Part shown: in pieces, positions 52,575 to 61,808 of the stretch
Layout: each line of letters starts with the position of its first letter
How positions within the stretch are numbered: position 1 is the stretch's first letter
NCBI RefSeq assembly: GCF_900105395.1
Contig: NZ_LT629775.1
Span: 6,351,501-6,415,500 of the forward strand
From: Streptomyces sp. TLI_053
GTDB taxonomy: Bacteria > Actinomycetota > Actinomycetes > Streptomycetales > Streptomycetaceae
Length of the DNA stretch: 64,000 nucleotides
Direction of reading: 5' to 3'
The notes under the pieces: model-generated
The model's input: the letters and a program-made list of their open reading frames with translations, nothing else
What the model was told of the DNA's origin: nothing
Databases searched by the model: none
Position numbers and translations under genes: made by a program

Positions 52575-52646
52575 GGGCGCGTAGCTCAGTGGTAGAGCGC
52601 TGCTCTTACAAAGCAGATGTCGGCGGTTCGAAACCGTCCGCGCCCA
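52575..52646 (+). tRNA. tRNA-Val(TAC)
   Basis: A 72-nt cloverleaf: acceptor GGGCGCG/CGCGCCC, discriminator A, anticodon stem-loop CTGCTCTTACAAAGCAG giving TAC, T arm GGCGGTTCGAAACCGTC. It is followed at once by the element described to the right, and its 3' half is partly duplicated near 53774, so it is the probable integration target (attB). Confidence 0.95.
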
Positions 52647-52654
52647 CAGCAGAG

Positions 52655-53861: not shown

Positions 53862-55019
53862 TTACACGTCCCGTAGCGCCCGCGCACCAGGTGACTGTGG
53901 TTGGCCGAGTTCCTGTCGGACAACAGCCCCCATCCGATCGGCGATGGCGCGGTCGCGGTCGCTGGTCATGTGCTGGTAGATGAGCGCGGCCCGGGTGCTG
54001 CTGTGGCCCATCCTGGTCATGAGTTCCCGGGTACTGGCCCCGTTCTGCGAGGCGAGAGTGTTGCCGGTATGCCGCAGGTCGTGGAAGTGGGCATCCTCAC
54101 TCACCCCGGCCGCCGTGCGGGCCCGGATCCAGTCGTCCCGGAAGTTGCTGCGGCGGAGCTTGCCACCGCGGGGCCCGATGAACAGGTGGCCGTCCGGGCC
54201 GGGGCCAGCGTACCGGTCGAGGTGGTGGGCCAGGTCGTCGACGATCTCGGCGGGGAAGGCTACCGGCCGGAATCCCGCACGGCTCTTCGGCGCCTTGTCG
54301 TAGAGCCGCCCGCTGTTCAGCTCCGCCTGGTTGCGCTGTACCCGGACGAGCCGGTTCGCCAGGTCGACGTCCCGCCGGCGGAGCGCGGCCAGCTCGCCGA
54401 AGCGGAGCGTGGTGAAGGCGGTCAGCAGCACCAGGGCCCGCCAGCGCAGCCCGATCGCGTCGGCGACGGCGAACACCTCGGTGACGGAGAGGACGGGCCG
54501 CTCCGGCACGTCGTAGGTGTCGGCGCCCTTGATCCGGCACGGATTGCGCTGGATCAACTCGTCGTCGAGGGCGGTGTTCATGATGGCCCGCAGCAGCTGG
54601 TACGCCTTGACCACCGAGGGCTCGCCGACCCCGTCCTCCAGCAGCGCGGACCGCCAGGACCGTACCCGTGCCGGGGTGATCTCGGCGAGCGTCCGGTGGC
54701 CAAGACCGGGCTGGATGTACTGGCGGAGCGTGATCGCGTACCGCTCCCGGGTGCTCTCCTCCAGCTTGCGGTCCCGCAGCCAGGTGGCAGCGAAGTCGCC
54801 TAGCTTGGCCTTCCCGGCGTCCGGATCGGTCCACTTGTCGCGCTTGATATCCGCCTCGATGAGCGTGAGCGCGATCTCGGCATCGGTCTTGGTCGGGTAG
54901 GTCTCCTCCCCATTGCGCATCAGCCCGGTGGCCGGGTCCGGGTAGCGGATCTGCCAGCGCCCGGAGGGCAGTTGGCGGAGCGACCCGAAGCGCCGGCGGT
55001 TTCCTTTGCTGTTGGCCAT
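53862..55019 (-). CDS. int: Tyrosine recombinase (AICE integrase)
   Basis: The 385-residue phage-type integrase has an Arm/AP2-like N-terminus (RFGSLRQLPSGRWQIRYPDP), a SAM-like core-binding domain (about 70-160), and a catalytic domain with Arg in LLTAFTTLRFGELAAL, His-x-x-Arg in HFHDLRHTGNTLA, a following His in MGHSSTRAA and Tyr nucleophile in LIYQHMT. All catalytic residues are present, so it looks functional. Its ATG overlaps the excisionase stop by one nt. The gene ends beside the att relic and terminator. Confidence 0.95.
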   Translation of the reverse strand: MANSKGNRRRFGSLRQLPSGRWQIRYPDPATGLMRNGEETYPTKTDAEIALTLIEADIKRDKWTDPDAGKAKLGDFAATWLRDRKLEESTRERYAITLRQYIQPGLGHRTLAEITPARVRSWRSALLEDGVGEPSVVKAYQLLRAIMNTALDDELIQRNPCRIKGADTYDVPERPVLSVTEVFAVADAIGLRWRALVLLTAFTTLRFGELAALRRRDVDLANRLVRVQRNQAELNSGRLYDKAPKSRAGFRPVAFPAEIVDDLAHHLDRYAGPGPDGHLFIGPRGGKLRRSNFRDDWIRARTAAGVSEDAHFHDLRHTGNTLASQNGASTRELMTRMGHSSTRAALIYQHMTSDRDRAIADRMGAVVRQELGQPQSPGARALRDV

Positions 55020-55234
55020 CAGGCGGCCCTCCGCAGCTGACGGGTCCGGCTGACCGGCTGGACCGTGCGGGCGGCGATGTACCCGGCGACGGCCGACGCC
55101 GGGATGCGGACGTGGCGTCCGACCTTCACGAAGGCGATGCGCCGTTCGGCGATCAGCCGTCGGGGGAAGCGCTCAGTGGTGCCGAGCAGTTCGGCCGCCT
55201 GCGCGATGGTCAGGAGGGGGTCCGGGGATGTCAT
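55019..55234 (-). CDS. xis: Excisionase, MerR-like HTH DNA-binding protein
   Basis: A 71-residue protein with an excisionase-type winged helix: LLTIAQAAELLGTTERFPRRLIAERRI and VKVGRHVRIPASAVAGYI. Such proteins bend att DNA and direct the integrase to excise. It overlaps rep by four nt (ATGA) and int by one nt (TGATG), implying tight co-translation. Confidence 0.9.
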   Translation of the reverse strand: MTSPDPLLTIAQAAELLGTTERFPRRLIAERRIAFVKVGRHVRIPASAVAGYIAARTVQPVSRTRQLRRAA

Positions 55235-56844
55235 GCTGCCTTCCCTTCGGGTGTGACCGCGGATGCGGGGGAGAGGGGTCCTTCAGCACGGGCCAGGGCT
55301 TCGTTCAGGGCCTCCCGCCAGCGGACGCGTTCGGCGACGGCCCGCAGGAGGCGGGTCGCAAGCGGCGCCATGTCCGGATCGCCGGGCCGGACCGGTTCCC
55401 AGAGGTAGCGGTGGGGCTCGGCGCGGCCGGCGGTGTCGCCGAGGACGTCGAGGACCCAGGCCCGGCGTTCGGCGCGATGGTCTGCGAGGGTCTTGCCGGA
55501 CCACTTGCGCGAGACCAGGACGCGGCGCCCGCCGTAGCCGAGGTGTTCGCGCTTGTGGGCGCGGGAGCGGCAGGCGCCGGGGCGCAGGGCGGGGTGTGCG
55601 TTCTTGGGTTGGACGCCGTGAAGCAACCAGTTCGCGCAGGTCGGCGAGCAGGGTTCGTGGCCGAGTTCGGCGGCGAGGCGGTCGACGTGGTCGCTCTCGG
55701 TCGTGCCGGTCGGGGTGTGGCACTCGGCGACGGACTTGGTGAGGTACTTGGTCAGGTAGCGGACGCAGCGGGCAGCCTGGGGGGAGCCGACGAGGATGCC
55801 CTGGGCGTCGAGTTGGGGGCCGAAGCGGAGCACGTGCGTGGGCTGGGCTTCGGGTTCGTCGTCGAGTTGGTCGAGGGCTTCGTCCCAGGTGGGCAGCGGT
55901 TCGTGGGTGGTCGGGTCGAGGAAGGCGCCAAGTTCGGGCGACCAGTGCGGCGGCGCGTCGGGTGCGTGGACGGGGTGGTCGGCGGGCGGCCACCAGACCT
56001 GGTGGTAGGTGGCGGCGACGACCTGGCGCAGTTCGGCGCGGGAGACGGTGCCGCGCAGGGCGAGGTGCAGGTGCGGGGCGAGGCGGCGCTGGGGTTCGAC
56101 GACGGCGAAGTACTGGACGTCGTGGCCGACGAAGCGGCGCAGGTTCTGGACGAACCGGTCGATGAGCTTGGGGAAGTGGAGGGCGTCGCGTGCGGCCCGG
56201 CGGTAGTCGTAGGTGGTCGGGTCGACGGGGGTGCCGTCGGTGCGGACGCGTCCGTACGAGGGCAGGGTGAGGGTCAGGAACAGCGAGGGGCGGAAGGTTC
56301 GGCCGTCGGGGGTGGTGTATGCCTTGCCGAGGGTGCGGTTCTCGACCGGGCGCCGGGGCAGGTCGCTGGTGTCCTGCCGGCGTCGGGTGGAGCGGACCCG
56401 GCGCGCGGTCGGCGCGGGGGCGAGGGAGCCGCGGACGCCGGTCTCGGCGAGTTCGGTGTCGATCTCCACCAGCAGCGAGGCGAGTTCGTCGGCCTCCGCG
56501 CCGGTGGCCGCGGTCTGGGCCTTGGTCAGGTCGGCCCGCAGTTCGCCGAGGAACTGCTGCGCGGCGGTGGCGGGGTCGGGTTCGAGGACGGGTTCCTCGG
56601 TGAGGTGCCAGCCTTCGCGGCACTGGGCGGCGCGCAGGCGGCGCTTGCGTTCGGCGCAGCTGGGGCACAGGCTCGCGCGGGTGGCGCCGCAGGGGATGTC
56701 GATGATCTCGGTGTGACCGGTGGCGGTGTCGGTGCGACGGACAGCCACCGGCCGGACGCAGACGCCGTGTTCCTCGGCGACCTGGCGGAGCACGGTACGG
56801 GCCAGGGGCATCCGGGCCCGTTCCGCGCGGGTGGTTCCGGTCAT
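55231..56844 (-). CDS. repSA: RepSA-type rolling-circle replication initiator
   Basis: The 537-residue initiator is found in pSAM2-like elements. A zinc-finger-like CGATRASLCPSCAERKRR lies near residue 53. The HUH motif is EPQRRLAPHLHLALRG, with His-Leu-His metal ligands. A downstream Tyr-containing ARCVRYLTKYLTKSVAE carries the likely nicking tyrosine. A second Cys/His cluster follows (CSPTCANWLLHGV). Length and order agree with the family. The element origin probably lies close to or inside this gene, as in pSAM2. Confidence 0.92.
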   Translation of the reverse strand: MTGTTRAERARMPLARTVLRQVAEEHGVCVRPVAVRRTDTATGHTEIIDIPCGATRASLCPSCAERKRRLRAAQCREGWHLTEEPVLEPDPATAAQQFLGELRADLTKAQTAATGAEADELASLLVEIDTELAETGVRGSLAPAPTARRVRSTRRRQDTSDLPRRPVENRTLGKAYTTPDGRTFRPSLFLTLTLPSYGRVRTDGTPVDPTTYDYRRAARDALHFPKLIDRFVQNLRRFVGHDVQYFAVVEPQRRLAPHLHLALRGTVSRAELRQVVAATYHQVWWPPADHPVHAPDAPPHWSPELGAFLDPTTHEPLPTWDEALDQLDDEPEAQPTHVLRFGPQLDAQGILVGSPQAARCVRYLTKYLTKSVAECHTPTGTTESDHVDRLAAELGHEPCSPTCANWLLHGVQPKNAHPALRPGACRSRAHKREHLGYGGRRVLVSRKWSGKTLADHRAERRAWVLDVLGDTAGRAEPHRYLWEPVRPGDPDMAPLATRLLRAVAERVRWREALNEALARAEGPLSPASAVTPEGKAA

Positions 56845-57061: not shown

Positions 57062-57256
57062 TCAGGGGTGGATGGTGGCGAGGGTCTTGGTGAGCCAGGC
57101 GAGCAGGTGCTTGATCAGGGAGGAGGCGCCGGTCTCGGCGAGGAGGAAGCCGAAGGCACCGCAGAGGATCAGGTGCGTGGCCTTCAGGGCCTGGTGCCGG
57201 AGGAGGACGGCGATCAGGGCGCCGAGGAACAGGACGAGCGAGCCGGTGACGATCAC
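57062..57256 (-). CDS. Small membrane protein, probable Spd-type spread protein
   Basis: A 64-residue product with two hydrophobic helices (IVTGSLVLFLGALIAVLL and HLILCGAFGFLLAETGA). It starts with GTG overlapping the traB stop by four nt (GTGA). Small membrane proteins beside TraB in Streptomyces elements are Spd proteins that aid spread of DNA within recipient mycelium; the assignment rests on size, topology and position. Confidence 0.7.
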   Translation of the reverse strand: MIVTGSLVLFLGALIAVLLRHQALKATHLILCGAFGFLLAETGASSLIKHLLAWLTKTLATIHP

Positions 57257-58839
57257 GGCTGTGCACCACCTTCCGAGGACGTGTCCGAGGGGTTGATGTC
57301 CAGGGGGCTAGACACCCCGTAGACGGAGTCGTTGTCGTACCGGGCGACCAGGGCGTCGATCTCGGCATCGGAGACGTAGGCGGCCCGCACGCGGACCGGG
57401 GTCGGGCTGCCCTCGTTGCGGACGTAGCCGACGCCCGCGCCGGTCGTGGGGTCGGGGGAGATCAGGTCCGCGTACGCGCCCCGGTTGCGGGCGCCGCTGC
57501 CGAGGACCATGTCGACCTGGGCGGCTTCGTCCATGCGCAGGGCGATCCGGTCGGGGAACAGGTTGCGGAGGTTCATGACCTCCTTGCGGGGGTCCTGGAG
57601 CGCCCCGACGAGGCAGAAACCGACCGAACGGCCCTGGCTGGTCAGGGTGGCGATCGCGGCTTCGGCGCGGCGCCGGAGGTCGCGGTCGGGCTGGTAGGCG
57701 GTGAGGAAGGCGAGTTCGTCGACCAGGACGACGACGAACGGCGAGGCAGGGGTGGGAACGTGGGCCCGGAGGCGGCCGGCGAAGGCGAGCGCGCGTTCCT
57801 GCATCCGGTCGACGGCCTGTTCCAGTAGTTCGACCATGGCCTCGGGGTCGCTGGCGTACCTGGTGAACAGCCCGGCACCGAAGGACAGTTCCATGCGCTT
57901 GGGGTCCAGCGCCCAGAGTTCCACCAGGCCGGCGGACACCTCGGGGAGCAGCTCGCGGACCACGCCCCACAGGATCGACCCCTTGCCGGAGCCGGTGACT
58001 CCGGCGACCAGGACGTGGGTGCCGTGCAGTCGCAGGCGCCAGGGCTCGCCGTCCTCCTGGGTGCCGATCTTCACCGAGCGCCACGGGACTTGGCCGAGCG
58101 GTTCGGCCTCAGCTCCCTCTCCGCCGCGACCTCCGCCAGCAGTCGTGCCGTCCGGCGGACCAGCCTCAGGGCGGCCACCAGTGTCCGGAAGCCCAGGTGT
58201 CGAAGCTTCCGACCAGGCGGACGCGGCGGCCTTCCGCGTTCCGACCGCCACGCGGCGAAGGCGAAACCGGCACCTCCCCACCAGCACTCGGGCCCGGCCG
58301 AACCACCCCCTCGCCCGGCTGCGGAACGTTCGCCGTGCAGGCTTGGGAGTCCGGCCGGCCACCGTGAACGGCTTGGCGAGCGGGTCGAAGGTCCACGCGC
58401 GGAGGACCACGGCCCCGCGGCGGGGGCTTGTCACTTCCACCCGGTGGACGCGCCAGGCGTGGGCGATCCCGTGCGCGTGCTGGGCGACCTGTTCGGGGAC
58501 CTGGCCGGGCAGGAGCCCGATCAGGACGTCCAGGCCGCCGGGGTGCTTGCGCATCCGCGCGATGCGCGGCCACACGTACTCGTAGGGAGCGTCGAAGCGG
58601 GGCAGCGGTGCCTGCTGCCACAGTCCCAGGGAGTAGCTCAACTCCGGCCAGCCGCGCCGGATCCGTGAGCGCAAGGACTTCGCCCGGTACACCAGCCGGC
58701 CGACCGGTCCGGCGACGAGGGCCGCGATCACCAGTAGTCCGGCCTTCGGGCCGAGGTGGGCCACGACCCAGGAGTAGCCGATCAAGGCGGCCAGCAGGGC
58801 CAGGAGCACGGACTTGAGGGTGCTGCTCAACTTGAACAT
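57253..58839 (-). CDS. traB: FtsK/SpoIIIE-type conjugative DNA translocase
   Basis: The 528-residue protein has two N-terminal helices (about residues 9-25 and 31-47), an Arg-rich linker (about 170-240) and an FtsK-type motor: Walker A AGVTGSGKGS (about 300) and Walker B VVVLVDELAFL. TraB proteins form hexamers that pump double-stranded plasmid or AICE DNA between Streptomyces hyphae. The short C-terminus, without a clear FtsK gamma domain motif, should recognise the clt repeats; I did not find an obvious clt repeat array in the window. Confidence 0.92.
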   Translation of the reverse strand: MFKLSSTLKSVLLALLAALIGYSWVVAHLGPKAGLLVIAALVAGPVGRLVYRAKSLRSRIRRGWPELSYSLGLWQQAPLPRFDAPYEYVWPRIARMRKHPGGLDVLIGLLPGQVPEQVAQHAHGIAHAWRVHRVEVTSPRRGAVVLRAWTFDPLAKPFTVAGRTPKPARRTFRSRARGWFGRARVLVGRCRFRLRRVAVGTRKAAASAWSEASTPGLPDTGGRPEAGPPDGTTAGGGRGGEGAEAEPLGQVPWRSVKIGTQEDGEPWRLRLHGTHVLVAGVTGSGKGSILWGVVRELLPEVSAGLVELWALDPKRMELSFGAGLFTRYASDPEAMVELLEQAVDRMQERALAFAGRLRAHVPTPASPFVVVLVDELAFLTAYQPDRDLRRRAEAAIATLTSQGRSVGFCLVGALQDPRKEVMNLRNLFPDRIALRMDEAAQVDMVLGSGARNRGAYADLISPDPTTGAGVGYVRNEGSPTPVRVRAAYVSDAEIDALVARYDNDSVYGVSSPLDINPSDTSSEGGAQP

Positions 58840-58939: not shown

Positions 58940-59335
58940 TCAGGCCGCGGACTTCGCGGAGGAGCGGGCCGCGGCGGGCGCCCGGACGCCGGTGGCCTTG
59001 AAGGAGTAGGCGACCCGGCCGCTGTTGTTGACGTAGGCCGTCACGGTCAGGCCGTCGAACTCGACCGGCCGGAAGGGCAGACCCGGCGCCGCGTCCGGCA
59101 GCACCGGAAGGACCGGGGCCACGACCTTGACGCGAGCGGAGGTGTCGCGCGCCTCCGGGTCCGGGTCCACCACCGAGACGACCCAGAGCGGGTGCCCGGT
59201 CGACTTGTCGCGCGCCTGCACCTTCGTACCGCTCTTGCTCGCCTCGAAGTCGGCGACCGGCTCGACCGAGACGGCGAACGCGCCGGCGGGGAAGACGTCC
59301 TCGAAACGGACGGGGATCGCACCACGGATGGCCAT
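58940..59335 (-). CDS. Pra-like replication/integration/excision activator
   Basis: A 131-residue protein beginning AIRGAIPVRFEDVFPAGAFA, with AAPGLPFRPVEFDGLTVTAY toward the C-terminus. It resembles the small AICE proteins named after Pra of pSAM2, which activates rep, xis and int expression. I assign the name from recall of family sequence and position, and no DNA-binding motif is obvious. GGAGAG precedes the ATG. It is the first gene of the minus-strand operon, and its promoter region carries three copies of an 18-bp palindrome. Confidence 0.75.
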   Translation of the reverse strand: MAIRGAIPVRFEDVFPAGAFAVSVEPVADFEASKSGTKVQARDKSTGHPLWVVSVVDPDPEARDTSARVKVVAPVLPVLPDAAPGLPFRPVEFDGLTVTAYVNNSGRVAYSFKATGVRAPAAARSSAKSAA

Positions 59336-59347
59336 GAGGATCTCTCC

Positions 59348-59365
59348 TGTCTACCCCCCTGGACA
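59348..59365. promoter_or_regulatory. 18-bp palindrome, copy 1 (TGTCTA-CCCCCC-TGGACA)
   Basis: Closest copy to the Pra-like start (13 nt upstream), overlapping the leader just before the ribosome site. One half-site differs from the perfect TAGACA. Binding here could block both transcription and translation initiation. Confidence 0.75.
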
Positions 59366-59392
59366 GTCGGAAGCCGACCGCCCCGAGATTGC

Positions 59393-59410
59393 CGTCTAGG
59401 GGGGTAGACA
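59393..59410. promoter_or_regulatory. 18-bp palindrome, copy 2 (CGTCTA-GGGGGG-TAGACA)
   Basis: Perfect GTCTA/TAGAC arms around six Gs, 45 nt from copy 1 start to start and centred about 65 nt upstream of the Pra-like gene. Confidence 0.8.
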
Positions 59411-59436
59411 ACAAGGTAGAGCGTTGCCCGCTCGAC

Positions 59437-59454
59437 TGTCTAGGGGGATATACA
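59437..59454. promoter_or_regulatory. 18-bp palindrome, copy 3 (TGTCTA-GGGGGA-TATACA)
   Basis: Third copy, 44 nt from copy 2, so the three sites lie about four helical turns apart on one DNA face. It lies midway between the GntR stop and the Pra-like promoter. Confidence 0.78.
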
Positions 59455-59500
59455 AAGATCTTGACTGACCGTCAGGTGCATTCGGCCCTGTCGTCCCGGA

Positions 59501-60259
59501 TCAGGCCTGAACGGGCGGGATGTCGATCTCGTACGAGAGTCGGAACCGGTCGGCGGCAAGCACGATGTCCGCCGTCTCGACCGCCAACTCGCCTGCCCAG
59601 TGGGTGCGTTCTATCGCAAGCACGGTCGATCCCAGCGGGATGCCGAGGGGTTCCGCCTCGATTTCCAGGACCGGCCTGGCGGACACGTCCTCAGTCACCC
59701 GCGTGACCACGATGCCGATGGCGGACATCCGCGCCACTACTCCGGAGCCGGCCAGTGGACCGTTCTCGGGCAGGACGACGGCCGTCCCGCCGGTGACCGT
59801 CATCGGCTCCCAGCTGGTCGACAGCTGGGTCGGTTCGCGGTCGGCGCGGAAGACGTACTGGCTCTGCATCACCGGGTCGCCCTCCGGGATGCCGAGCCGG
59901 AGCGCCAGGGCGGCGGTCGCGTAGGTCTTCTGGGAGTCGCACGACCACGACGGCTCGACCCCGCGGGCGCGGCTCTCAGCAGCGAACGGACTGCCGGCCG
60001 CGTGGTAGCGCCCGCGCGCCATCCGTGCTGGCACCGGCCTGATCCGCACATAGGTTCCCGAGCCCGGGCGCCCCTCGATCAATCCCTCGGCGGTCAGCAC
60101 CCGCAGGGCCTGTCGGACCGGCTGTTCCGAGATCGCGTGGTCGCGGCACAGGTCCGCGATGCTCGGCATCCGGGAGCCCGGCGCCCGGTCGCCCGAAACG
60201 ATCTCGGCGCGCAAGGCATCCGCCAGGCGCAGATACGCCGGTCGTCCCAACTCTCGCAC
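59501..60259 (-). CDS. GntR-UTRA transcriptional repressor (KorSA/TraR-like)
   Basis: A 252-residue regulator: GntR winged helix PAYLRLADALRAEIVSGDRAPGS...EQPVRQALRVLTAEGLIEGRPGSGTYV, then a UTRA ligand domain (about residues 95-245). GntR proteins in Streptomyces plasmids and AICEs (KorSA, TraR) repress transfer genes. I chose the GTG at 60259 because AGGGG lies six nt upstream and the family begins near here; an upstream GTG (60286) is possible but lacks a ribosome site. Twin palindromes upstream suggest autoregulation. Confidence 0.88.
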   Translation of the reverse strand: MRELGRPAYLRLADALRAEIVSGDRAPGSRMPSIADLCRDHAISEQPVRQALRVLTAEGLIEGRPGSGTYVRIRPVPARMARGRYHAAGSPFAAESRARGVEPSWSCDSQKTYATAALALRLGIPEGDPVMQSQYVFRADREPTQLSTSWEPMTVTGGTAVVLPENGPLAGSGVVARMSAIGIVVTRVTEDVSARPVLEIEAEPLGIPLGSTVLAIERTHWAGELAVETADIVLAADRFRLSYEIDIPPVQA

Positions 60260-60297
60260 GAGCGCCCCTATCTCACGTTTTCTCACATCAGCTTGAC

Positions 60298-60315
60298 AAG
60301 CTCGGACCCGAGCTT
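60298..60315. promoter_or_regulatory. GntR operator candidate, copy 1 (AAGCTCGG-AC-CCGAGCTT)
   Basis: A perfect 18-bp palindrome in the divergent gap between the GntR gene and the ATPase gene, 39 nt upstream of the GntR start. Confidence 0.7.
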
Positions 60316-60317
60316 TC

Positions 60318-60335
60318 AAGCTCGAATCCGAGCTT
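60318..60335. promoter_or_regulatory. GntR operator candidate, copy 2 (AAGCTCG-AATC-CGAGCTT)
   Basis: A second palindrome exactly 20 bp from the first (two helical turns), so two dimers could bind side by side. A further 17-bp copy (AAGCTCGAACCGAGCTT) lies inside the HTH gene at 61332-61348. Confidence 0.7.
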
Positions 60336-60386
60336 CACGCAAAGTATCCGATTGATCGCGCCACAGAGAAGCAGAGGGGCACCCCC

Positions 60387-60821
60387 ATGCCATGGATCGC
60401 TCGCTTCCCCGGAGTCCCCGAGTCCGCGGGTGCCGCCCGCAAGCTGGTTCGTGACGCGCTCGGCGACCACCCCCGGGTCGCGGACGCCGAGCTGATCGTC
60501 TCCGAGCTGGTGACCAACTCCGTTCTCCACAGCAAGTCCGGTCGCCCCGGCGGGTCGGTGTGGGTCGAGGTCCGACGCTCGGCCGACACGGTCTGGATCG
60601 ACGTCGCCGACGAGGGTGGTCGCGACGGCCTTCCCCTGCATCGAGCGCCCGACGAGGCCGCGGACTTCGGTCGTGGCCTCACCCTGGTGGACGCCCTGGC
60701 CGACTCGTGGGGCGCGCACAACGACGGCGATGATTTCCGCTCGGTGTGGGCGCAGCTAACATCCACCGCAGAGGAAAACGCCTGCACCAAAAATCACTCG
60801 CCCATTTCACAGGGTGTATAG
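60387..60821 (+). CDS. RsbW-like ATP-binding protein (anti-sigma-type HATPase)
   Basis: A 144-residue GHKL ATPase of the serine kinase/anti-sigma family. The N-box is ELIVSELVTNSVLHS, the G1-like motif is VADEGGRDG, and GRGLTLVDALADSWG is the G2 region. Streptomyces has dozens of such proteins; some bind sigma factors or anti-anti-sigma factors. It is divergent from the GntR gene and shares its operator region. Its stop codon overlaps the fourth 18-bp palindrome. Confidence 0.88.
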   Translation: MPWIARFPGVPESAGAARKLVRDALGDHPRVADAELIVSELVTNSVLHSKSGRPGGSVWVEVRRSADTVWIDVADEGGRDGLPLHRAPDEAADFGRGLTLVDALADSWGAHNDGDDFRSVWAQLTSTAEENACTKNHSPISQGV

Positions 60822-60832
60822 CCCCCTATACA
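60815..60832. promoter_or_regulatory. 18-bp palindrome, copy 4 (TGTATA-GCCCCC-TATACA)
   Basis: Perfect TGTATA/TATACA arms, overlapping the ATPase stop codon and 134 nt upstream of the HTH gene. Same spacing and C/G-run core as copies 1-3, in the opposite orientation. Confidence 0.8.
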
Positions 60833-60915
60833 ACGGCGGCCGACGAGGCCGTCAGGAGACCCCGCGATGCCCCACGACTCACAGCGAACCGGCCGACACC
60901 TGCGTTTGCTGATCC

Positions 60916-60933
60916 TGTCTATCCCCCTAGACT
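60916..60933. promoter_or_regulatory. 18-bp palindrome, copy 5 (TGTCTA-TCCCCC-TAGACT)
   Basis: Fifth copy, 33 nt upstream of the HTH gene start and 101 nt from copy 4. One end base departs from symmetry. Confidence 0.75.
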
Positions 60934-60965: not shown

Positions 60966-61808
60966 ATGGCGGGAGAAACGCAGCGGATCGCCGCCATCAA
61001 GAATCCGTTCGAGCTGCTTCGAGCAGCCACCGTGCGGCTCGCCGAGGCACAGCAGGAGGTCACCGAGCTGTCGCGACTGCGGCAGCGGGTGATCTCCGAG
61101 CTGCACGAACAGGGCATGTCCTACGCCCAGATCGCCGCCGAGGCCGGACTCACCCGCGGGCGGATCCACCAGCTGAAGCAGTCTGCGCCCGCGCCCGAGG
61201 GGGCGTTCCTGGGCAATGCGCGGCTGATCATCGCGACACCGCTCAAGCAGGAGGCCGGTAACGCCAGGCCGGTCCTGGCCGCCGAGGACTTCGCAGCCGC
61301 TCAGCGGCTCGGCGATCTCGCCCGCTCCTACAAGCTCGAACCGAGCTTCGAGCACGTGCCGATCGGCGGAGAGATCGACCTCAACCGCGAGGACATGATC
61401 GTCATCTGCGGCCCCCGGCTCTCCAGCCACGTCGCCGGGGTGCTCGCCCAGGACCCGTCGATCTGCTTCGAGCGTGCCCCCGACGGACCCTGGACCCTGC
61501 GCGACCGCGAGGCCGGCGTCGCCTATCGCTCCGGCATGGACTCCGAGCCCGCGGCCAACTCCGACGTGGCCTACCTCGGCCGACTCCCGCGGCCCGACGG
61601 CCAGGGCCTGGTCATGGTCCTCACCGGCATCCACCCGCAGGGCACGCTCGGCGTCGTCCACCTGATCGTCAACGACCTCGCCGACCTCTACCAGCAGGCC
61701 GGCACCGACAGGTTCTCCGTCCTGCTGAACGTCGACTACAACCCCCAGGACAACGAACCCGTGCGCGTCCGCCTACTGTCGCCGTTCTACCGGCACGAGG
61801 CAGACTGA
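60966..61808 (+). CDS. HTH protein with an unrecognised C-terminal sensor-like domain
   Basis: A 280-residue protein. Residues about 25-75 hold a sigma-70-region-4-like HTH (VISELHEQGMSYAQIAAEAG, then LTRGRIHQLKQ). The C-terminal ~200 residues form a compact alpha/beta domain with MIVICGPRLSSHVAGVL, SDVAYLGRLPRPDGQGLVMV and TGIHPQGTLGVVHLIVNDLA. I cannot place this domain in a named family; glycine-rich loops suggest ligand or nucleotide binding. The ATG has GGAGGGG upstream, which excludes the longer in-frame start. It is followed four nt later by the PP2C gene, and its promoter carries 18-bp palindromes. Confidence 0.75.
   Translation: MAGETQRIAAIKNPFELLRAATVRLAEAQQEVTELSRLRQRVISELHEQGMSYAQIAAEAGLTRGRIHQLKQSAPAPEGAFLGNARLIIATPLKQEAGNARPVLAAEDFAAAQRLGDLARSYKLEPSFEHVPIGGEIDLNREDMIVICGPRLSSHVAGVLAQDPSICFERAPDGPWTLRDREAGVAYRSGMDSEPAANSDVAYLGRLPRPDGQGLVMVLTGIHPQGTLGVVHLIVNDLADLYQQAGTDRFSVLLNVDYNPQDNEPVRVRLLSPFYRHEAD

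Follow-up and report, generated by a model that had tools for sequence, protein, structure and literature searches.

Six copies of an 18-bp palindrome in a pSAM2-type AICE of Streptomyces as candidate operators of an element-encoded helix-turn-helix repressor

An AICE in the 64,000-nucleotide stretch of Streptomyces sp. TLI_053 DNA that was analyzed (contig NZ_LT629775.1, positions 6,351,501 to 6,415,500; this whole stretch is referred to as the window, and coordinates are those of the window) carries six copies of an 18-bp palindrome, at or close to the promoters of its transfer, replication and regulator genes. We consider it likely that the six sites are the operators of an autoregulated repressor of transfer and replication, namely the HTH protein encoded at 60966-61808. 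That the protein binds the sites, that its effect is repressing and not activating, and whatever part the HATPase and PP2C proteins encoded beside it may play are inferred from the arrangement and comparison of the sequences.

The window carries a pSAM2-type element with a tyrosine integrase, Xis, a RepSA-type initiator and an FtsK-type transfer protein in one module. The attachment repeat, 43 bp from the 3' end of tRNA-Val, lies at 52605-52647, with its second copy at window-equivalent 68248-68290 (L167:6749-6791); these direct repeats are 15.6 kb apart and the element runs 4.3 kb past the window end. Its right part, beyond the window, holds a gene of unassigned kind for a 335-aa protein (window-equivalent 67013-68020). 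On the minus strand, the transfer operon opens with the gene for a 131-aa Pra-like protein (p131, 58940-59335), and the same strand encodes the FtsK/SpoIIIE-type transfer ATPase (57253-58839, profile match), the RepSA replication initiator (55231-56844; PF20199, E 1.2e-102), the excisionase (55019-55234, TIGR01764), the tyrosine integrase (53862-55019, profile match) and a GntR/UTRA (KorSA-like) regulator (59501-60286, profile match). On the plus strand, a HATPase_c_2 protein resembling RsbW/SpoIIAB/RsbA (60387-60821) is encoded upstream of the gene (hth) for the HTH protein of 280 aa, which combines a Sigma70_r4-like HTH at residues 35-74 with a C-terminal alpha/beta domain, and the gene for a PP2C-family phosphatase (PF13672, 61813-62637) directly follows hth here and in all relatives. 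The closest named relatives are mostly from Kitasatospora.

Five copies of the palindrome had been reported in the original prediction, and they lie where it placed them, at 59348-59365, 59393-59410, 59437-59454, 60815-60832 and 60916-60933, with the spacing of 44-45 bp that it gave for the first cluster (45 and 44 bp). The motif had been said to occur nowhere else in the window, which is incorrect, since a sixth copy, TGTCTAGCCCCCTGGACA, is present on the minus strand at 57297-57314, within the 3' end of the FtsK/Tra gene, ahead of the small-ORF/rep/xis/int part and about 40 bp before the next small ORF; the equivalent position is occupied in most related elements. The consensus first proposed, TGTMTA-N6-TAKACA, is exact at 59437 and 60815 only, with one mismatch in each of the other three noted copies. 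A better description is TGTMTA-N-CCCCC-TAGACA, in which the right half, CCCCCTAGACA, is nearly invariant and the left arm is loose. Allowing two mismatches, the window holds six matches against 0.14 expected, and none of 100 shuffles reached six, so the repeats are not a product of chance. When a weight matrix trained only on the array sites of other elements was run on the window, exactly these six sites ranked first (21.4-32.7 bits), the next match scored 12.4, and the best score over 10 shuffled windows was 10.4. The original prediction had also raised the possibility that the motif is common across the chromosome; a scan of the 9.9-Mb chromosome found it to be almost exclusive to the element, with seven sites at up to one mismatch, being the six and TGTCTACGTGCGTAGAAA, which is without the C-run. 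The same genome has five matches to RepSA-type replication genes, so the other related elements in the same cell are without the site.

Three of the sites form an array in front of the p131-tra operon. The right arm of site 1 (TGTATATCCCCCTAGACA, 59437-59454, minus strand), TAGACA at 59437-59442, is predicted to supply the -35 box of the operon promoter, TAGACA being one base off the -35 consensus TTGACA. A predicted -10 box, TACCTT (59413-59418, minus strand), follows 18 bp after this arm. Among 35 arrays, a TAnnnT box, mostly TACCTT, was found 17-18 bp after the right arm of site 1 in every one; as a control, a box at that distance after site 2 was found in 1 of 35, and shuffled gaps gave a mean of 1.5. 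Transcription is predicted to start at site 2 (59393-59410, minus strand) and site 3 would then fall in the leader. Site 3 (59348-59365) is on the plus strand, that is, inverted, as it is in all arrays, and ends 12 bp before the ATG, just ahead of the ribosome-binding site of the first transfer gene.

The promoter of hth is predicted as TTGCTG-N16-TAGACT in nine window-type elements, with the -35 box at 60906-60911 of the plus strand and the -10 box, TAGACT (60928-60933), formed by the right arm of the conserved site at 60916-60933 (plus strand). This double use of the arm as a -10 box accounts for the T, instead of A, that is conserved at its last position. The site at 60815-60832 (plus strand), also kept in the nine window-type elements, overlaps the HATPase stop codon, lies about 100 bp ahead of the following site and has perfect palindrome arms; like the site at 57297 it is not on an obvious promoter. 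In Actinomadura-type elements the site upstream of the HATPase gene is immediately preceded by a -10-like box, and in some of them a further site lies over the -35. Judged against these predicted promoters, the layout of the sites at the tra and hth promoters is the anatomy expected of a repressor, though at site 1 the overlap with the -35 would suit an activator too.

The same array, with the third copy inverted, precedes the Pra-like/tra operon in elements of Streptomyces, Actinomadura, Thermomonospora and Nocardiopsidaceae. The gene order around it varies. Elements of the window type have the array on the side of the Pra-like/tra operon, with gntR separating it from the HATPase, HTH and PP2C genes, which run divergently. 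In type-2 elements everything points in one direction, beginning with a site and continuing with the HATPase, HTH and PP2C genes, the array, the Pra-like/tra genes, another site and then rep, xis and int; the sequence identity of rep is only 26-28%. A separate search with the HTH protein alone retrieved 20 loci besides the window-type relatives, mostly from Actinomadura, Thermomonospora and Nocardiopsidaceae. A site precedes the HATPase gene at every one of the 20, a weaker site lies 44 bp before hth at most of them, and 18 have the array, complete with three copies in 15 of these; at the two loci lacking it (L144 and L152) no tra or rep match was found within the DNA stretch fetched. In Nocardiopsidaceae the array precedes the window-type Pra/Tra/Rep cassette and in Actinomadura it precedes the other cassette. 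Since the array stays while the cassette changes, it belongs with the HTH module and not with the cassette. Two further features were seen in type-2 elements. A conserved palindrome, AGAGGAATAATTCCTC, precedes the site upstream of the HATPase gene by about 60 bp (L027, L029-L040, L155, L156), which suggests another regulator of the HATPase-HTH-PP2C operon. In several elements (L027-L039) a longer inverted repeat, rich in G+C and 40-60 bp before rep, has the sixth site at its center and could be a terminator or an origin feature.

A motif scan of related AICEs had been proposed with the original prediction, and the site was indeed found in related elements, where it tracks the hth gene. The strict site pattern occurs, in clusters, in 25 of 298 family genomes. 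Of the 298, 24 have a close relative of the HTH protein (E <= 1e-85), and the site is present in 23 of these 24 (Fisher p 5e-31, an overstated value because the test treats related genomes as independent). In the sole exception, G001, the match covers residues 93-280 only, so that this hth looks truncated. Two genomes have the site without hth: G131, an 11-kb contig with rep and tra and no hth match, and G115, whose lone match, a single site without a module, looks like chance and was rejected as a true operator. RepSA was found in 244 of the 298 genomes and the SCO3933/Pra-like family in 224, and with the site in 25, neither predicts it. The hth and PP2C genes were inseparable among all HTH relatives found, so co-occurrence alone cannot tell which product matters; only the presence of an HTH and the covariation of its recognition helix do.

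More distant HTH relatives (37-43% identity) are likewise always followed by PP2C, lack TAGACA sites and have other palindromes upstream. The clade that includes the window element has TAGACA arms and the recognition helix RGRIHQ, which is invariant although overall identity between its subgroups is only about 50%. Type-3 AICEs have TGNTAA-GCCCCCC-TTANCA (arm TTAGCA) with the helix RARVAQ, type 4 has CCCCC-TA(A/G)GC (arm TAGGCA), in two copies at 13 of 13 loci, with RGRVGQ, and type 5 has GGTTTA-N6-TAAACC (arm TAAACC), in two copies and also on a Streptomyces plasmid, with KGRVSQ. Each of the four HTH clades has 100% bootstrap support and one arm type, and as arm type and clade are fully confounded, this covariation amounts to a few events and not to 63. 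Conservation is 0.89 in the HTH region versus 0.73 in the rest of the protein. FtsK-type genes lie near the two type-4 loci that were examined, no HATPase match was found in types 3-5, and the DNA upstream of a Nocardia HTH relative (42% identity) has no repeated palindrome. On a Streptomyces anulatus plasmid, NZ_CP109263.1 (L168:8905-10693), hth is annotated as a sigma-70 factor and its neighbor in the PP2C position as an 'integrase'; both look misnamed.

That one regulator controls both operons, as the original prediction proposed, is well supported by these comparisons: the site follows hth across element types and families, and arms and recognition helix change together. Of the two binders then put forward, co-inheritance and helix covariation strongly favor the HTH protein, and the Pra-like protein, with its family so much more widespread than the site, is disfavored.

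The AlphaFold model of the HTH protein (pLDDT 90.8) has an HTH region with a long first helix at residues 14-81 and an alpha/beta domain at residues 86-270. A sequence search of solved structures with the protein gave weak HTH matches only. For the C-terminal domain, comparison with PDB folds returned no match at E <= 0.001; weak fold matches to BcsB and glucuronidases were not used to identify it, and it is possibly a new sensor domain. The sigma-70 region 4 profile PF04545 matched 25 of 25 family members, and relatives are named 'sigma-70 family RNA polymerase sigma factor' in RefSeq. However, neither the protein nor the other members gave a profile match to sigma region 2, which is responsible for core binding and -10 recognition, and the HTH proteins are therefore unlikely to be true sigma factors. 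We also considered that the HTH-PP2C pair might be a defense system, a reading that was dropped when no PADLOC profile matched HTH, PP2C or HATPase. The HATPase and PP2C genes suggest that the HTH protein may be controlled by phosphorylation.

If the HTH protein is the reader, then within the array site 1 would place it over the -35 box, site 2 over the start and site 3 over the leader as far as the ribosome-binding site, and occupation of the array would prevent expression of the transfer genes while the element is integrated. The site at 60916, which overlies the -10 box, and that at 60815 would let it limit its own synthesis, and from 57297 it would act ahead of the replication and excision genes. 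The repressor would probably be switched on or off by the co-transcribed PP2C and, in elements of this type, by the HATPase encoded upstream. In window-type elements the GntR protein would add a control of its own at the gntR/HATPase promoter, where the tandem palindromes AAGCTCG-N4-CGAGCTT (60298-60315 and 60318-60335) probably represent a second layer. The combination of a strongly conserved half-site with a loose left arm would be unusual for a simple symmetric dimer.

A first alternative retains the sites and their reader and differs in the sign of the control: the HTH protein would activate the transfer operon by contacting RNA polymerase at the -35, with the array as an activation platform, in the manner of Pra on rep-xis-int in pSAM2. 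Site 1 does overlap the -35, its distance to the -10 is constant at 17-18 bp, the HTH belongs to the sigma-70 region 4 kind, and Pra, the downstream regulator known from pSAM2, works by activation (PMC8584621, PMC3218068). Nevertheless, sites 2 and 3 are at and downstream of the predicted start, with site 3 adjoining the ribosome-binding site, and at the hth promoter it is the -10 that coincides with the site, and we regard activation as unlikely.

It is more improbable still that the sites are read by another protein, whether the Pra-like protein, the GntR protein or a host regulator. The Pra-like gene follows the array in most complete elements, but SCO3933-family genes occur widely without tracking the motif, and type-3 elements pair them with a different palindrome. 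The model of the Pra-like protein, moreover, is a beta-barrel without a helix-turn-helix, with a likeness to SSB proteins that is weak and below significance (E about 0.2), so that the barrel may fit single-stranded DNA better than an operator. For p131 (58940-59335) and its SCO3933-family relatives alike, the best fold matches, not significant, are single-strand DNA-binding proteins. Comparable GntR proteins of pSAM2 and S. coelicolor do bind the pra promoters as well as those of their own genes (PMC8584621). The one encoded here, however, has its own palindromes at 60298 and 60318, from which the TAGACA site differs as originally predicted, and no gntR match was found in type-2 elements or in the elements of other families that keep the array. 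Against a host factor, the host genome is nearly free of sites. Finally, the repeats could be cis-elements for DNA processing (a rolling-circle origin or iterons, TraB recognition/clt) or RNA hairpins, as they adjoin rep and tra, the type-2 copy before rep sits inside a longer inverted repeat, and Streptomyces plasmids are known to carry short palindromes, sps among them (PMC4170104), but this was rejected as highly improbable because the sites persist when rep and tra cassettes are swapped and coincide with predicted promoter boxes, and because site 1, upstream of the predicted start, cannot act in RNA.

With the HTH protein as autoregulated repressor, a wider proposal can be made, which we put forward tentatively and with more doubt than confidence: HTH-PP2C(-HATPase) modules may be an undescribed family of phosphorylation-controlled conjugative-element repressors in Actinomycetota that silence transfer, replication and themselves via clade-specific C-run palindromes, with HATPase and PP2C setting the phosphorylation and rapidly changing arm/helix pairs keeping related elements in one cell independently controlled. 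In a paper library that covered only a minority of subscription journals, no microbiological paper had CCCCCTAGACA or TGTCTAGGGGG in a relevant context, a result that supports novelty only weakly. What is known about the control of these elements comes mainly from the KorSA-Pra pair of pSAM2; the HTH regulator, named a sigma factor in databases, is likely the main switch for many elements and some plasmids in several actinobacterial families. The array, its promoter and the four arm/helix pairs make a testable recognition code that allows regulon prediction in any genome, and the PP2C and HATPase partners are a candidate link between host signaling and conjugation.

Several known systems are comparable in part. 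KorA/TrfB of RK2, an HTH repressor encoded on a plasmid, uses a single palindrome to silence the promoters for replication and transfer. The likeness of the HTH region to it is weak (PF16509 in 12 of 25 members, best E 0.002), and RK2 KorA has neither a C-terminal alpha/beta domain nor a PP2C partner. As in RsbW/SpoIIAB partner switching, a HATPase_c_2 protein and a PP2C-family phosphatase are found beside a sigma-like DNA-binding protein, although, unlike in those modules, neither a sigma region 2 nor a STAS protein was recognized among the profiled genes, and the PP2C is of the PP2C_2 kind. SpdA2 of pIJ101 and relatives is likewise a DNA-binding protein of conjugative plasmids that reads a conserved repeated palindrome, sps (PMC4170104); sps, however, is 12 bp long, lies for the most part inside spdA and has to do with stability, whereas the sites of this element are 18 bp long and on promoters. 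In pSAM2-type control KorSA represses pra, and Pra activates rep-xis-int (PMC8584621, PMC3218068). Features of that system are present here, namely the GntR/UTRA protein and the 131-aa Pra-like protein, with 21-29% identity to SCO3933-family members. No GntR operator was found at the p131 promoter, the exact AAGCTCG-N4-CGAGCTT occurring only between gntR and the HATPase gene, and the p131 promoter bears TAGACA sites instead. The SCO3932 motif, AC[TC]T[AG]TT[GC][TG][GT]ACG (PMC8584621), differs from both palindromes of this element, the TAGACA site and the GntR type. Like KorSA-Pra (pSAM2; SCO3932/SCO3933 of S. coelicolor), the control proposed here would be exerted by an element-encoded, autoregulated repressor of a central step of transfer and replication, but the proposed reader is a sigma-region-4-like HTH protein in place of a GntR protein, and the operator is a C-run palindrome.
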